A stretch of 64,000 nt of DNA from assembly GCA_016779205.1 (NCBI GenBank), contig JADHOC010000017.1:1-64000 (forward strand), read 5' to 3'. The notes beneath the pieces are model-generated. The model did no database searches. It was given only the letters and a program-made list of their open reading frames with translations, and was not told the origin of the DNA. This DNA comes from Planctomycetota bacterium (GTDB taxonomy: Bacteria; Planctomycetota; UBA1135; GCA-002686595). Numbering within the stretch: the stretch's first letter is position 1; every line of letters begins with the position of its first letter. Shown in pieces: positions 35,845 to 42,315 of the stretch. Made by a program: the position numbers and the translations under genes.

Positions 35845-37842
35845 ATGCTCGTCACGCTCGCTCTCCTCCTGGCCCCCGCGGCGGCCCCCCAGCAGCCCGC
35901 AGGGGAGGGGCCCTCCCACCTCGGGGCCTACCTGTCGACGGTCGCGGGGCTCGCCCGCCCGGTCGCCGTCGCGTTCGGCCCTCACCTGGAGCGGCCCCAC
36001 GCGCTGTTCGTCGCGACCAGGGGAGCCGGGGATTCCTCGCCCCCCCTGATCCAGGTGTTCGGCGCCGAGGCGGACCCCGACCGATCCGCTCCGCTCCTCG
36101 GCAGCCTCGGCGAGGGCTGGCTGGAGCGCCCCGCCGGGCTCGCGGTCTCCGGTGAGGGTGACGTGTTCGTGACCGACGCGCTCCAGCGCACGCTCTGGCA
36201 CTTCCCCTCCGGTGGCGGGGAGCCAGCAGCGGCGGCGAGCGCGCCGGCGTTGACCACCCCCGCCGGAGTGGACGTGACCGGGTCCGGTGACGGGCAGCTG
36301 GTCGTGGTCGCTGACCCAGGAGCCGGGTCCGTCAAGCTCTTCCGAGCCGGCTCTCCATCGCCCGAGCCCCTCGGCGAGGGGATCCTCGTCCGCCCCCGGG
36401 GCGTGTGCTTCATCGACGGTCCTGCAGGGCAGACGCAGATCGCGGTCTGTGACAGCGCGACCCACCGCATCCACGTGTTCCAGCTGGATGGAACCCACGT
36501 GCTCGGCTTCTCCCAGCTCGGCCCCCACCCGTCGCTCCTTTCCGGCCCCGCCGACCTGGAGTTCGCCGACGGCAAGCTCTTCGTCGCGGACCGCGAGAAC
36601 CACCGCGTACAGGCCTTCCACTCCGGCGCGTCGATCGGCGAGCTCGCGTACCGCTTCGGCGTGCACGCGATCCGCCCGGGGGAAGGCGCCGGCGCCCTCC
36701 ACTACCCCGCGGCGCTCGCCGTGTCCGAGGATGGAGCGCTGCTCGCGCTCGCCGAGCCCATGGACGACCGGGTGCAGCTCTTCGGGAGGGCCCCTGGCGC
36801 GGAGCCCGTCGAGGACCCCAGCCGGGCAGCCATCGGTCCCCCCGCGGCCCACTTCGGACCCGACATCTCCAGCAGCGGGGTCTACGTCGCGACGGTCTCT
36901 CCGGAGAGCCACCAGATCCAGATCCATGACCTGCGCGGAAAGGAGCCCGCCAAGATCTCCGACGTGGCCAGCTTCGGCACCCGGTTCGGCATGTATCGGA
37001 CACCTCGCGCCACCTGGCTCTCCTCGGGAGGGCAGGCCTTGCTGGCCGTGGACGAGGGCAACTCGCGGCTGACCCGCTCGGCCCTGCGGGTCCGCCCCCA
37101 GGAGCCGCTGAACGCGGACCCCGAGCTCGCCCGACACCTGGACGGGGTCGACCTCGGCGCGGTCACGGGGCGCCCCTTCTGGCCGGGCGCGGTCGCCGCG
37201 CTCGCACCTGGCACCAACAACGAGCTGATCCTCGTCACCGACCGCGCCACGGACTCGGTCCTGATGCTCGACAAGGACCTCGTGCCCATCGGCACCCTCG
37301 CGGGCGACGAGGAGACCGGCCCCATCCGCGGCGTGGCGGGCCTCTCGCCCGCGACCCTCGGAGTGGCGAGCACGATCCTCGTTGTGGACTCCGGCGGGCA
37401 CGGGGCACGGGGAGCGCCACAGGGCCGCGTCTTCGAGTTCGGCCCGAGCGGCGCCGTGCTCCGGACGTTTGGCGAGGGCATCCTGGTGGAGCCGGACGGC
37501 GTCACCGCCCGCGAGAACCGTATCTGGGTCACCGACCGGGCCACCGATCGCATCGAGCGCTTCGAGCGGCAGCCCGGGGGCGCCATCGAGCACGTGGGCG
37601 GCTTCGGAGGACGCGGGCTGGGACCGGGCGAATTCCACGACCCGCGCGGCATCCTGGCCATGGATGATGGGCGGCTCATCGTCCTGGACCACGGGAACCA
37701 CCGCGGGCAGATCTTCGACCCCGACCACCTCACCCTGATCGCGGGGTTCGGGGGCAGGCTCTACATCGAGCCGCTGAAGTCGGCGGCCACCTGGGTGCCC
37801 CTCCAGCCGAAGTCCGACCGCAATGGAGATCAAGGCCGATGA
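35845..37842 (+). CDS. Secreted NHL-repeat beta-propeller protein
   Basis: 665 residues, with a short signal peptide (MLVTLALLLAPAAA). NHL-type blades recur: ERPAGLAVSGEGDVFVTDA, RPRGVCFIDG, LFVADRENHRVQAF, EPDGVTARENRIWVTDRATDRIERF and DPRGILAMDDGRLIVLDHGNH. Two propellers, or one large one, are possible. Such proteins bind ligands or other proteins outside the cell. The 153-bp divergent gap upstream separates it from the minus-strand gene. It overlaps the lipoprotein gene by ATGA and probably forms a three-gene unit with the dihaem peroxidase. Confidence 0.85.
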   Translation: MLVTLALLLAPAAAPQQPAGEGPSHLGAYLSTVAGLARPVAVAFGPHLERPHALFVATRGAGDSSPPLIQVFGAEADPDRSAPLLGSLGEGWLERPAGLAVSGEGDVFVTDALQRTLWHFPSGGGEPAAAASAPALTTPAGVDVTGSGDGQLVVVADPGAGSVKLFRAGSPSPEPLGEGILVRPRGVCFIDGPAGQTQIAVCDSATHRIHVFQLDGTHVLGFSQLGPHPSLLSGPADLEFADGKLFVADRENHRVQAFHSGASIGELAYRFGVHAIRPGEGAGALHYPAALAVSEDGALLALAEPMDDRVQLFGRAPGAEPVEDPSRAAIGPPAAHFGPDISSSGVYVATVSPESHQIQIHDLRGKEPAKISDVASFGTRFGMYRTPRATWLSSGGQALLAVDEGNSRLTRSALRVRPQEPLNADPELARHLDGVDLGAVTGRPFWPGAVAALAPGTNNELILVTDRATDSVLMLDKDLVPIGTLAGDEETGPIRGVAGLSPATLGVASTILVVDSGGHGARGAPQGRVFEFGPSGAVLRTFGEGILVEPDGVTARENRIWVTDRATDRIERFERQPGGAIEHVGGFGGRGLGPGEFHDPRGILAMDDGRLIVLDHGNHRGQIFDPDHLTLIAGFGGRLYIEPLKSAATWVPLQPKSDRNGDQGR

Positions 37843-38324
37843 GGAACTCACTCCTGACCCTGCTCGCGCTCACCGCCCTGGGATGCGGCCCCGACGAGGG
37901 ACCGGCCGCGGACGAAGCGGGCGGCCCCGCCACCCCCTCCGAGGAGACGCCGGCGAGCGGCGCCGCCGAGGAGGTTCGCGGTGAGACCCTGGAGGCCGGC
38001 TCCAGCGGAGGGACGTTCCTCGCCCGCGTCACGCCGCTGGTGGACCCGATCCCCATGAACGAGGCGTTCAGCGTCTCGCTCTCCCTCCTCGACCCTGAGA
38101 CCGGAGCTCCGTTCACGGACTACGACGAGGTGTCCATCGACGCCCGCATGCCCGCCCACAAGCACGGGATGCTGCGCGACGTGGGGCTCACACCGCAGGA
38201 GGACGGCTCCATGAGAGCGGACGGGCTGCTGCTGCACATGTACGGCCACTGGGAGTTGCACGTGGACATCCGCAAGGGCGCCCGCTTCGAGCGCGCGCAG
38301 ATCAGCGTGAGGCTCCAATATTGA
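37839..38324 (+). CDS. YtkA-like lipoprotein
   Basis: 161 residues. The lipobox LTALGC (Cys16) predicts a lipid-anchored protein. After an acidic linker (about 17-50), an Ig-like domain carries MPAHKHGM and LLHMYGHWELHVDI, the His/Met-rich core of YtkA/FixH-like domains. Members of the family are linked to copper or oxidase maturation in some bacteria; metal binding here is an inference from the His/Met clusters. It is translationally coupled to the NHL gene (ATGA) and to the dihaem peroxidase (TTGA). Confidence 0.85.
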   Translation: MRNSLLTLLALTALGCGPDEGPAADEAGGPATPSEETPASGAAEEVRGETLEAGSSGGTFLARVTPLVDPIPMNEAFSVSLSLLDPETGAPFTDYDEVSIDARMPAHKHGMLRDVGLTPQEDGSMRADGLLLHMYGHWELHVDIRKGARFERAQISVRLQY

Positions 38325-39664
38325 GTGTGCGGGGTCGCGTGGGCTGGCTTGCTCCCTTGGCGCTCCTCGCCGTGGGAGCGGCCTGCGGGCCGTCGCCGGA
38401 GCAGCCGGCGCCCCCGGTGGAGACCGCCGTGGGGTTCAGCGACGAGCAGGTCCGGCGGATCATGCAGATGTCGCCGCTCCCGCCGCTCCCTCCGGACCCC
38501 ACGAACCGTCACGCCGACGACCCGCGCGCCGCGCGCCTCGGACAGGCGCTGTTCTTCGACGAGCGGCTCTCCGCCGACGGGGCGGTCTCCTGCGCCACCT
38601 GCCACGACCCGGAGCGAGGCTTCACCGATGGCAAGCAGCTCGCCCTCGGCCAAAAGGTGGGGAACCGCCACACCCCCACCCTGTGGAACGTCGCCCACCA
38701 TCGGTGGCTGACCTGGGACGGCCGCGCGGACTCCCTCTGGATGCAGGCCCTCGACCCGATCGAGGACCCCCGTGAGATGGGGACCACGCGGGGGAAGCTC
38801 GCCCGGGTCATCGCTGACGACCCCGGGCTGCGCGCCGCCTACGAGGCGGTCTTTGGGCCGATGGATAGCGCCGCGCTCGGAGACCGGCCCGACGATGTGC
38901 GCCCCGCACGGGGCCGCGAGGCCGCCAGCGGCCCGACGGCGCCCGAGGCCGTCCGCGCCTGGGCCGACCTCGACGACGATCAGCGCGCGGCCATCGACCA
39001 GGTCTTCGTGCACGCCGGCAAGGCCATGGCCGCCTACCAGCGGCTCCTCGTCCGGGGTGATTCTCCGTTCGACCGCTTCGTCGAGGGCCTGCGGGAGAAC
39101 GACGGGGAGAAGGTGGAGAGCCTCTCCCCGAGCGCCCAGCGCGGGCTCGCCATGTTCATCGGCAAGGCCAACTGCGTGCTCTGCCACAGCGGGCCGAACT
39201 TCTCGGACGGAGAATTCCACAACAACGCCCTGCCCACCCTGCACGGCGGCGAGGCACGGGACCCTGGACGCTTCGACGGCGCCAGGGTCGTCGCGGCGAG
39301 CCCCTTCAACGCCGCTGGCCCCCACAGCGACGACCCCGACGGGCCCGCCGCCCTGCGGGTCCGCCAGCTCCGACAGTCCTCCGAGGCCTGGGGGGAGTTC
39401 AGGACCCCTAGCCTGCGGAACCTGGCCCACCGGGCCCCGTTCATGCACCAGGGCCAGTTTGGGGACCTCGCAGGCGTGATCGAGTTCTATTCGGAGCTGG
39501 AGGGGGCCACGGGAAGGGGACATCACCAGGAACAAATCCTCGTCCCCCTGCGTCTGTCCGTTGGAGAGAAGGAGGACCTCAGGGCCTTCCTGGCCGCCCT
39601 GGAGGGCGACCAGGCGGACCCCGGGCTGCTCGCTCCCCCGTCTCAATCTGCGCTCGGTCGCTGA
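38321..39664 (+). CDS. Dihaem cytochrome c peroxidase / MauG family lipoprotein
   Basis: 447 residues. Two haem-binding motifs, CATCH (91-95) and CVLCH (285-289), and the family blocks RLGQALFFDERLSADGAVS, NRHTPTLWNV, FRTPSLRNLAHRAPFMHQG (candidate distal Met ligand) are present. The N-terminus ends AVGAAC, a lipobox (Cys22), so it is probably anchored in the periplasm. Members reduce H2O2 or oxidise partner proteins. The start is TTG at 38321 overlapping the upstream stop (TTGA); GTG at 38327 is an alternative. Confidence 0.92.
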   Translation: MSVRGRVGWLAPLALLAVGAACGPSPEQPAPPVETAVGFSDEQVRRIMQMSPLPPLPPDPTNRHADDPRAARLGQALFFDERLSADGAVSCATCHDPERGFTDGKQLALGQKVGNRHTPTLWNVAHHRWLTWDGRADSLWMQALDPIEDPREMGTTRGKLARVIADDPGLRAAYEAVFGPMDSAALGDRPDDVRPARGREAASGPTAPEAVRAWADLDDDQRAAIDQVFVHAGKAMAAYQRLLVRGDSPFDRFVEGLRENDGEKVESLSPSAQRGLAMFIGKANCVLCHSGPNFSDGEFHNNALPTLHGGEARDPGRFDGARVVAASPFNAAGPHSDDPDGPAALRVRQLRQSSEAWGEFRTPSLRNLAHRAPFMHQGQFGDLAGVIEFYSELEGATGRGHHQEQILVPLRLSVGEKEDLRAFLAALEGDQADPGLLAPPSQSALGR

Positions 39665-39709: not shown

Positions 39710-39742
39710 ACACCTAAACGGGTGTAAGGGGGTACGTTTAGG
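39710..39742 (+). promoter_or_regulatory. Overlapping inverted repeats upstream of the choice-of-anchor B gene
   Basis: A perfect 8-bp inverted repeat, CCTAAACG (39713-39720) and CGTTTAGG (39735-39742), with 14 bases between the arms. It overlaps a shorter one, ACACC (39710-39714) and GGTGT (39721-39725). The two cannot form at once in RNA. It lies 38 bp before the start at 39781, so it may be an operator or an RNA switch-like leader. Confidence 0.4.
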
Positions 39743-39780: not shown

Positions 39781-42315
39781 ATGATCTTCCCCATCATCGC
39801 CGCGCTCTCGCTCGCCACACCGTCCCCCCTCGCGCTCCACGACGACGACCCCAAGATCCTCGACCGCCTGCCGCCGGTCCCCGGCACGGGCTACACCGCA
39901 GCCTCCAACGCGCCGGGCCTCAACGCCCTGACCGCGGCCGCCTCCCTCGGATTCCCGGCGGACAACTTCACGTTGCAGTCGTGGATGACCATGAGCGACC
40001 TGGGCTTCGGCGGGGCCAACGGCAACGACTGCTGGGGCTACACCTCGCCCTCTGGCCGGGAGTACGCGCTCATGCTCACCACCCAGGGCACCTCGGTCGT
40101 GGAGGTCTCCAACCCGTCGCTCCCGAACCTGGTTGGGACCATCAGCGGTCCCAACAGCACCTGGCGCGACATCAAGGTCTATGGGAGCCGCGCCTACGCC
40201 GTGTCCGAGGGCGGTAGCGGCATCCAGGTCATCGACCTCTCGAACGTGGACGCCGGCGTCGTGACGCTGGAGAACACCGTCACCGGGCCGGGCACCAGCG
40301 CCACCCACAACATCGCGCTCGATGAGGTCAGCGGCTTCCTGTACCGCACCGGCGGTGGCAGCGAGGGCCTCCGGATCTACAGCCTCGCCAACCCCTCGGC
40401 TCCCCAGTACGTCGGGTCCTGGTCCCAGCGCTACGTCCACGACGCGCAGGTCGTCACCTACACCTCTGGGCCCTTCGCCGGCCGAGAGCTCGCCTACTGC
40501 TGCGGCGGCCTGAACGGGGGCCAGACCGACACCGGGCTGACCATCGTCGACGTGACGAACAAGAGCAACCCCGTCGTCCTCTCCCAGGTCTCCTACCCCG
40601 CGCGGGCATACAGCCACCAGGGCTGGCTCTCGAACGACCGCACTCGCTTCTACCTCGGAGACGAGCTGGACGAGGGGTCGACCGTGAGCACGACGACCAC
40701 CCGCGTGTTCGACGTGAGCGACCCGGCCAACGCGACCTACATCGGCGCCTTCGACAACGGCAACGCCGCCATCGGGCACAACATGTACGAGCGGGACGGC
40801 ATCCTGTTCCAGGCCAACTACACCTCCGGGATCCGGGCCTTCGACCTGAACCAGAGCCTGAACTCCCCCCCGGAGGTCGGCTTTTTTGACACCGCCCCCA
40901 ACTCCAGCAGCGCCTCCTTCAACGGGCTGTGGAGCTGCTTCGTTGGCTTCCCGAGCGGGACGATCATCGGCAGCGACATCGAATCGGGCCTCTTTGTCCT
41001 CCGCTTCGGGCCGCCCGAGCTGGCCATCGCCCTCGCCCAAGGCGAGCCTGAGACCATCGATCCCTCCGGTGGATCCGTCTCCGTGGAGATCACAGAGTTG
41101 ATCCCCGGCTCGCTGGATCCCGCCACCCCGACGCTGACCTACAACATCGGGGGCGGCGCGACGACCGTGCCCCTCGTGGCCAACGGCGGCTCGTCGTTCA
41201 CGGCGGCGTTCCCGCCCATCCCCTGCGGTACCCAGGTCTCGTGGTATCTCAGCGCGAGTTCGCAGACGGGGCAGACGGTCAGCTCGCCTTCGTCGGCGCC
41301 CTCCTCCACCTATTCGTCCATCGTGGCCACCTCGCTCACCGTGGCGCGGGCCGATGACATGGAGTCCACCGCGGGCTGGATCGCCGGGGCGCCTGGCGAC
41401 GACGCCACCACCGGGATCTGGGAGCGCGGGAACCCCGTGGGGACCGCGGCTCAGCCGGAGGACGACCACTCGCCGGTGGGCGCGCAGTGCTGGTTCACCG
41501 GCCAGGGCAACCCCGGCGGCAGCATCGGGAGCAACGACGTGGACGGCGGGAGCACGACCCTGCGCACGCCGATCCTCGACATGTCGAGCCTGAACGACCC
41601 GACGGTCTCGTACTACCGCTGGTACTCGAATGACCAGGGAGCCTCCCCCAACGCGGACGTGTTCGTGGTGGAGATCTCCAACGACGGCGGCTCCTCCTGG
41701 AGCCTCGTGGAGAGCGTGGGACCCAGCGGCACCGGCACCGCTGGCGGCTGGATCCAGCACGCCTTCTCGGTCTCGAGCATCCTGACGCCCACGGCTCAGA
41801 TGCAGATGCGCTTCATCGCCTCGGACCTGGGCTCCGGCTCCATCGTCGAGGCCGCCGTGGACGACTTCGAGGTCTCGGACGTCAACTGCGGCGACGGGAT
41901 CGGAATTTTGTACTGCGACGCGGAGAACAACTCCACCGGGCGTGCGGCGACGGTGCTCGCCACCGGCTCCGCCGAGGCCGCGCTGAACGACCTGACCCTC
42001 ACGGTGATCGACCTGCCGTTCCTCTCGAGCGGCTACTTCATCGTCTCCCGCAACCAGGGGTTCGTCGCGAACCCCGGTGGGAGCCAGGGCAACCTCTGCG
42101 TCGGCAGCGGCACGGGCCGCTACCTGGGCCAGGTGGGCAACTCGGGCTTCGTCGGGAGCTTCTCGATCTCGGTGGACACGACCGCGATCCCCCAGCCCTC
42201 CATGTCGGTGCCCGCCCTGCCCGGTGAGACGTGGAACTTCCAGTGCTGGTACCGGGATCAGAACCCGGGCAACACGTCGAACTTCTCGCGCGGCTACTCG
42301 GTGACCTTCCAGTAG
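39781..42315 (+). CDS. Choice-of-anchor B family secreted protein
   Basis: 844 residues. A signal peptide (IIAALSLATPSPLA) precedes a beta-propeller-like region of LVIVD-type repeats (about 60-415): TTQGTSVVEVSNPSLPNLVGTI, IQVIDLSNVD, TIVDVTNKSNPVVLSQVSYP and RVFDVSDPANATYIGAF. An Ig-like part, a MAM/jelly-roll-like region (about 520-700) and a C-terminal domain starting GILYCDAENN and ending with GETWNFQCWYRD, then NTSNFSRGYSVTF, follow. That last domain is, to my recollection, widespread in one planctomycete lineage and may serve in sorting or surface attachment. Confidence 0.88.
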   Translation: MIFPIIAALSLATPSPLALHDDDPKILDRLPPVPGTGYTAASNAPGLNALTAAASLGFPADNFTLQSWMTMSDLGFGGANGNDCWGYTSPSGREYALMLTTQGTSVVEVSNPSLPNLVGTISGPNSTWRDIKVYGSRAYAVSEGGSGIQVIDLSNVDAGVVTLENTVTGPGTSATHNIALDEVSGFLYRTGGGSEGLRIYSLANPSAPQYVGSWSQRYVHDAQVVTYTSGPFAGRELAYCCGGLNGGQTDTGLTIVDVTNKSNPVVLSQVSYPARAYSHQGWLSNDRTRFYLGDELDEGSTVSTTTTRVFDVSDPANATYIGAFDNGNAAIGHNMYERDGILFQANYTSGIRAFDLNQSLNSPPEVGFFDTAPNSSSASFNGLWSCFVGFPSGTIIGSDIESGLFVLRFGPPELAIALAQGEPETIDPSGGSVSVEITELIPGSLDPATPTLTYNIGGGATTVPLVANGGSSFTAAFPPIPCGTQVSWYLSASSQTGQTVSSPSSAPSSTYSSIVATSLTVARADDMESTAGWIAGAPGDDATTGIWERGNPVGTAAQPEDDHSPVGAQCWFTGQGNPGGSIGSNDVDGGSTTLRTPILDMSSLNDPTVSYYRWYSNDQGASPNADVFVVEISNDGGSSWSLVESVGPSGTGTAGGWIQHAFSVSSILTPTAQMQMRFIASDLGSGSIVEAAVDDFEVSDVNCGDGIGILYCDAENNSTGRAATVLATGSAEAALNDLTLTVIDLPFLSSGYFIVSRNQGFVANPGGSQGNLCVGSGTGRYLGQVGNSGFVGSFSISVDTTAIPQPSMSVPALPGETWNFQCWYRDQNPGNTSNFSRGYSVTFQ

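Follow-up and report, generated by a model that had tools for sequence, protein, structure and literature searches.

To our knowledge, few systems are known in which a MauG-type dihaem enzyme remakes a partner protein. In one of them, MbnH reportedly matures the copper site of MbnP through kynurenine formation. The gene for this MauG-like dihaem enzyme lies beside a single partner-protein gene (PMC3621798). In the CorA/CorB and MopE/SACCP systems of methanotrophs, a copper protein is co-transcribed with a dihaem peroxidase-like protein, and the copper site of CorA and MopE consists of two His and a Trp oxidised to kynurenine (PMC3912023). Here, we analyse a window of 64,000 nucleotides (the whole stretch of DNA considered, positions 1 to 64,000 of contig JADHOC010000017.1, assembly GCA_016779205.1, from a Planctomycetota bacterium), in which the gene for a YtkA-like lipoprotein is followed directly by one for a MauG-type dihaem enzyme. 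We find that the two genes are a conserved pair in several phyla. As in MbnP/MbnH, a dihaem enzyme gene adjoins a single partner gene, and, as in CorA/CorB and MopE/SACCP, a probable copper partner and a dihaem enzyme are encoded together. Since the theme of a dihaem enzyme with a copper partner is already known, and the YtkA/MauG pair itself was not found described among the matches listed in the open literature (subscription journals mostly fall outside it), we regard the pair as a new variant of that theme.

The linkage of the YtkA-like and dihaem genes extends well beyond the window. Searching the order with the lipoprotein gave 107 places in 79 of 154 genomes, with relatives in 45 of the 87 genera; 101 places were examined, the window's own and the five weakest being excluded. 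A dihaem match lies immediately downstream on the same strand at 96 of the 101, an NHL gene immediately upstream of the YtkA gene at 50, and both are present at 47. Elsewhere in the phylum, where 40 of 52 listed places outside the order were examined, the dihaem gene is present at 38. A third set comes from a DNA pattern for MPxHxHGM...HMxGxW, two motifs of the lipoprotein, scanned over named genomes. The same pattern matched 148 of 162 loci collected earlier, and 80 loci stood among the matches listed, to which all counts for this set refer; several are in the same genomes as the order and phylum sets, and the sets therefore overlap. A dihaem match lies downstream in 73 of these 80 loci; among the 64 that leave over 1 kb for it, the figure is 59 (matches at cut contig ends are partial).

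By title, 27 of the pattern loci group with Planctomycetota and 53 elsewhere. Two of the latter (L217 and L252) belong to the window's own family, leaving 51 from other phyla, and the dihaem gene accompanies 47 of them. Forty-three of the 51 are Pseudomonadota by title. The dihaem gene accompanies three of the four Myxococcota and neither of the two Bdellovibrionota, and the one Bacteroidota locus has a partial match at a cut end. The window's own genome, of 4.3 Mb, has only six PF03150 genes and two loci with NHL repeats above the cut-off, and yet such genes are neighbours of the YtkA gene at 96 and 50 of the 101 order places; the adjacency is therefore beyond chance, which for a given gene we estimate, from the number of PF03150 genes and the genome size, at about one in several hundred. 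A first-pass annotation, made from the letters of the window alone, had named a neighbourhood search among the checks on its proposed unit of NHL protein, lipoprotein and dihaem enzyme. The counts above answer it strongly in favour of linkage, and the trio does recur (47 of 101 order places), but the core is the pair, to which a fourth gene and, in Pseudomonadota, a different upstream partner are added.

The motif protein is also encoded in four metagenome bins that bear the title Bordetella parapertussis or Klebsiella pneumoniae (L205, L221, L241 and L257), accompanied by a dihaem gene in all but L257; in our judgement, these titles look like loose labels and do not denote those species.

The enzyme belongs to the CCP_MauG family (PF03150; 151.8 bits against a cut-off of 25.6) and has two CxxCH motifs, CATCH and CVLCH, which bears out its initial description as MauG-type. 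It scores below the cut-offs of both MauG (TIGR03791; 170.5 versus 443.85 bits) and MbnH (TIGR04039; 147.9 versus 362.85 bits), and the corresponding enzyme of Stella scores 148.7 bits against TIGR04039. When aligned to MauG and further dihaem chains, the enzyme keeps both haem motifs, the inter-haem W132, the distal residues Gln142, Pro146 and Glu152, and Tyr390, so that it resembles MauG in its domain, its haem motifs and each of these positions. At the position of the Tyr ligand, all rows without a gap have Tyr (94 of 96 order rows, 97 of 101 other linked rows and 32 of 32 rows not linked to YtkA), as does chain 6e1c, named ‘Di-heme enzyme’, which we infer to be an MbnH. By this criterion, the window's enzyme would have MauG/MbnH-type axial ligation through Tyr390.

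What sets the YtkA-linked enzymes apart is a signature, RWxxWDGRADSLWxQ, that is absent from the non-linked enzymes compared. Among 197 dihaem rows from YtkA loci (open reading frames [ORFs] above a score limit, some genomes being represented twice), W140 is present in 196 and W129 in 190. The non-linked set comprises 32 mostly MbnH-like ORFs at the best 30 TIGR04039 loci; 31 of its 32 residues at position 140 are displayed, and none is Trp. Among the rows used for a tree, W140 is found in 53 of 53 linked enzymes versus 0 of 28 non-linked, MbnH-like ones, and in the window's own genome W140 occurs in the two YtkA-linked enzymes of six, the other four being without it. With the signature columns removed, the tree groups the linked enzymes on a single side of a branch whose Shimodaira-Hasegawa-like approximate likelihood ratio test (SH-aLRT) value is 98; it holds 81 rows taken at random from 229 under length filters, one per locus, and comes from a quick search with no bootstrap. 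In the reverse direction, a codon pattern for WDGRADxLWxQA, strict enough that many pairs are missed, was found at 15 places in 14 of 294 genomes, and all 15 lie directly downstream of a YtkA place (matched by coordinates). On sequence comparison, the YtkA-linked enzymes are one branch with a Trp signature of its own. The window's pair thus differs from MbnP/MbnH in the enzyme's score, in W140 and in having a YtkA-like partner.

The lipoprotein falls slightly under the Pfam YtkA cut-off, above which its paralogue in the same genome (G000:C16) scores 35.9 bits. It matches no NCBIfam family at E 0.1 and is hence outside the MbnP family (TIGR04052). CtaK (YtkA) of Bacillus subtilis is a membrane-anchored lipoprotein implicated in CuA assembly (PMC13344008). 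Like CtaK and the YtkA domain of B. subtilis YcnJ, the window's protein would place a YtkA-type copper-handling domain outside the membrane; it differs in that the YtkA-type proteins there are tied to Sco and CuA assembly, and in its own score, just below the Pfam cut-off. A Cys follows its hydrophobic N-terminus (ALGC, by reading), and a crude rule assigns lipobox-like N-termini to 118 of 221 YtkA ORFs and 46 of 196 dihaem ORFs, so lipoprotein and enzyme may both be membrane anchored in some genomes.

Across 102 aligned lipoproteins (pattern-found loci, which repeat the motif by construction, are excluded), M104, H107, H109, G110, M134, G136 and W138 are invariant, P105 and H133 are each kept in 101, and M111 in 91. 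Two clusters, AHKHGM and HMYGHWELH, had been singled out in the first reading of the sequence as copper-ligand candidates. Both are present, but the only conserved His are H107, H109 and H133; the second cluster's other His are mostly not kept (position 137 is His in 21 of 102, position 141 in 16).

The closest fold to the predicted lipoprotein model (predicted local distance difference test [pLDDT] score 87.5) is the copper resistance determinant CrdA of Helicobacter pylori, with Z scores of 12.8 and 12.7 versus 9.5 for the next, HftA, and a root-mean-square deviation of 2.5 over 101 residues. Further matches are P19/FetP-type copper proteins. A profile of 31 lipoproteins finds CrdA as its sole match in the PDB (9.7e-5), with MP..GM and MxGxW aligned, so that predicted model and profile both place the protein among CrdA-like proteins. 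CrdA is reported to have no His and to be able to bind Cu(I) and Cu(II) (PMC9182242); the window's lipoprotein differs in its three conserved His and its dihaem neighbour. From the fold match and the conserved candidate ligands, copper is the likely metal. No CorA or MopE is among the best 50 matches listed for the YtkA model, which leaves room for a relation; on the best reading, the copper partner is unrelated to the MbnP and CorA partners.

As a comparison, we took 19 Pfam-YtkA loci with no dihaem match in their flanks and set one aside (L343, which has the motif protein and lies where its contig ends). None of the remaining 18 has the complete MPxHxHGM...HMxGxW set; the nearest, L321 and L323, have M(N/T)HAGM...FTMGGDW. 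We considered Trp138 as a hallmark of the enzyme-linked proteins and rejected it, as GxW is found in 10 of these 18 as well (two with MxGxW); several of the eight without it are weak Pfam matches.

The reading that we favour, at a probability of about 0.38, is a periplasmic partnership of copper protein and dihaem enzyme that works like MbnP/MbnH or CorA/CorB, the enzyme oxidising the copper site of the lipoprotein. The lipoprotein would bind Cu(I)/Cu(II) through H107, H109 and H133 together with Met residues, and the enzyme, with a His-Tyr six-coordinate haem, would be activated by H2O2 (or by O2 and electrons). Oxidising power would pass through W132 and the enzyme's W129 and W140 to the docked lipoprotein and act on its copper site, with W138 as the likeliest residue to be oxidised. 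The site would mature in this way, as MbnH is said to bring about for MbnP and CorB is proposed to do for CorA.

Several observations weigh against this partnership. Unlike MauG, the enzyme of tryptophan tryptophylquinone synthesis, the window's enzyme has no counterpart of surface Trp199, which we take to be the docking-side Trp; the aligned stretch, FIGKANCVLCH, holds no Trp. The Tyr ligand is kept in all 32 non-linked rows and likewise in BthA, for which peroxide turnover is described (PMC6405878), so this ligand is no proof of partner oxidation. Because Trp also stands at the place of W138 in dihaem-less relatives and in CrdA, W138 may be a core residue, and its presence in many enzyme-less relatives weakens the case that the lipoprotein is modified. 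Motif proteins without a dihaem neighbour, despite room for one, occur at L065, L074, L084 and L102 in the order, at L180 elsewhere in the phylum, and at L225, L229, L234, L257 and L282 in the pattern set, L282 being on a contig as long as that of L065; others without a match lie at contig ends (L095 in the order, L170 in the phylum, L254 and L271 in the pattern set). At L225 (Oligoflexales), a YtkA-like protein (2302-2574) with the full His/Met/Trp motif and no dihaem gene adjoins cytochrome oxidase subunits, named by reading their sequence, a setting that points to plain copper delivery.

The alternative that survives best makes the lipoprotein a copper electron donor to a dihaem peroxidase, with the copper site as a redox centre. 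Azurin and pseudoazurin donate electrons to classical bacterial cytochrome c peroxidases. A donor of this kind would agree with the strict pairing (96/101; 73/80), the His/Met ligand set, the retained inter-haem Trp and distal residues, and the peroxide turnover of BthA. The MauG haem environment, with its Tyr-His ligation, is linked to Trp oxidation and not to low-potential donors (PMC6405878), and the extra W129 and W140 would be left unaccounted for; we rate electron donation as possible, at lower odds than the oxidising partnership. It is unlikely that the two proteins work side by side under a common promoter with no contact, the lipoprotein delivering or sequestering copper and the enzyme clearing peroxide near it. 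The implication of CtaK in CuA assembly (PMC13344008), the match to CrdA and the oxidase subunits beside L225 would suit such an arrangement, which leaves unexplained why the enzymes form a branch with their own Trp signature wherever the lipoprotein adjoins. More improbable still, the enzyme would oxidise the lipoprotein's Cu(I) to Cu(II) with H2O2, for detoxification or Cu(II) loading. We know of no cuprous-oxidase precedent in the dihaem family. The strict pairing and a His/Met set suited to both copper states (compare CrdA, PMC9182242) agree with it. Mere co-location of unrelated exported genes has only the short distances in its favour and is refuted by the neighbourhood counts, with linkage across several phyla, the lipoprotein in 45 of 87 genera, and NHL-YtkA fusions.

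Table 1. Features of the locus, with positions in the window unless another locus is named.
Feature	Position	Strand	Basis or remark
NHL double beta-propeller, exported, 665 amino acids	35845-37842	+	ORF; PF01436 5.7e-20
YtkA-like lipoprotein, 161 amino acids	37839-38324	+	ORF; PF13115 22.4 bits (cut-off 25.9)
Motif MPxHxHGM, residues 104-111, candidate Cu ligands	38148-38171	+	102 aligned sequences
Motif HMxGxW, residues 133-138	38235-38252	+	102 aligned sequences
MauG-type dihaem enzyme, 447 amino acids	38321-39664	+	ORF; PF03150 2.7e-44
First haem motif CATCH, residues 91-95	38591-38605	+	C, C, H in 96/96
Signature RWLTWDGRADSLW, residues 128-140, with W129, inter-haem W132 and W140	38702-38740	+	
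Second haem motif CVLCH, residues 285-289	39173-39187	+	C, C, H in 96/96
Tyr390, aligned with the MauG Tyr axial ligand	39488-39490	+	Alignment
Choice-of-anchor B (LVIVD) propeller, exported, fourth gene of the module	39781-42315	+	TIGR04312 313.3 bits (above cut-off of 100)
Amidohydro_2 gene	L264:3303-4142		Slot that NHL fills in Planctomycetota

In the window, an ATGA overlap (37839-37842) joins the NHL and lipoprotein ORFs and a TTGA overlap (38321-38324) joins the lipoprotein and dihaem ORFs; the TTG start of the dihaem gene is a guess, with an in-frame GTG at 38327 as the alternative. ORFs and domain matches confirm the three exported proteins linked by these overlaps, as given in the first-pass annotation. 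Its proposal of a periplasmic redox or metal-handling module fits the copper proteins, CrdA and the P19/FetP group, that the predicted fold resembles, but the unit that it drew was both too small and too large. A second, paralogous YtkA/dihaem pair, whose genes overlap by GTGA, lies at C16 of the same genome. An Rfam scan of the window has a tRNA as its sole match. Between the dihaem and fourth genes lies an inverted repeat, CCTAAACG / CGTTTAGG (39713-39742), which occurs once in the window and of which close relatives keep parts only.

Upstream NHL genes are for the most part a Planctomycetota feature; in the pattern set, a single gammaproteobacterial record (L206) has a weak match. At four loci (L058, L102, L104 and L118), a single reading frame continues from the propeller through the YtkA domain, and we see no further signal peptide in between; these are natural NHL-YtkA fusions. 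A fold search with the NHL model (pLDDT 88.8) returns generic double propellers such as LRP6. The choice-of-anchor B gene emerged from an all-against-all clustering of neighbours, several other large clusters of which we read as antisense frames of the pair. Downstream and on the same strand, it occurs at 38 of the 101 places in the order, at 18 of the 40 elsewhere in the phylum and at 15 of the 80 pattern loci, and within the order it accompanies 33 of the 47 places with NHL and dihaem genes versus 5 of the 49 with dihaem and no NHL; the window's own genome has two such genes above the cut-off. Its conserved H[DE]DDPK lies near the probable signal cleavage site. Among 96 matches overall, the residue before the His is Ala in 40, Leu in 10, Gly in five, Phe in one and Thr in one of 57 matched rows. 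Many relatives have a small Ala or Gly at this point (45 of 57), and the His may be N-terminal in their mature proteins. This is not clear for the window's copy, and as a general feature it was not upheld, since Leu precedes in the window's copy and Trp in the genome's second one.

In Pseudomonadota, the slot directly upstream of the YtkA gene is often taken by an Amidohydro_2 gene, a family assignment made by scanning two proteins: it is present at 35 of the 53 places not titled Planctomycetota, all 35 within the 43 Pseudomonadota, and in the upstream slot at none of the 168 places of the Planctomycetota sets. The amidohydrolases of Stella and Vineibacter have signal-like N-termini, and a structure search yielded no convincing solved relative. 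A PepSY_TM gene (L092:10877-11467), whose product is a possible electron supplier, overlaps the stop of the dihaem gene in the paralogous pair, and one follows the YtkA/dihaem genes at 12 of 101 order places. A few kb away from the paralogous pair, and in divergent orientation, is a gene for a different dihaem enzyme (L092:4273-5922), as also in several loci of the same genus. The two propellers in Planctomycetota and the amidohydrolase in Pseudomonadota are best explained, as part of the favoured partnership and with the same reserve, as lineage-specific accessories.

A bolder version of the copper-protein/dihaem-enzyme partnership would be an undescribed, widespread route in which a distinct dihaem branch, with W129 and W140 as a relay, oxidises the conserved Trp (or His/Met) in the YtkA copper site in Planctomycetota, Pseudomonadota and other phyla, and the amidohydrolase of Pseudomonadota might deformylate N-formylkynurenine to kynurenine. 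As a whole, this seems doubtful. We know of no gene assigned to N-formylkynurenine deformylation in the known systems. With a pair conserved in several phyla, a predicted substrate and a signature, the substrates of unassigned MauG-like enzymes become directly testable, and cultured hosts are among the records of the pair (Stella vacuolata and Vineibacter terrae). If the favoured reading is true, the YtkA copper family would be tied to MauG-type partner-oxidation chemistry.

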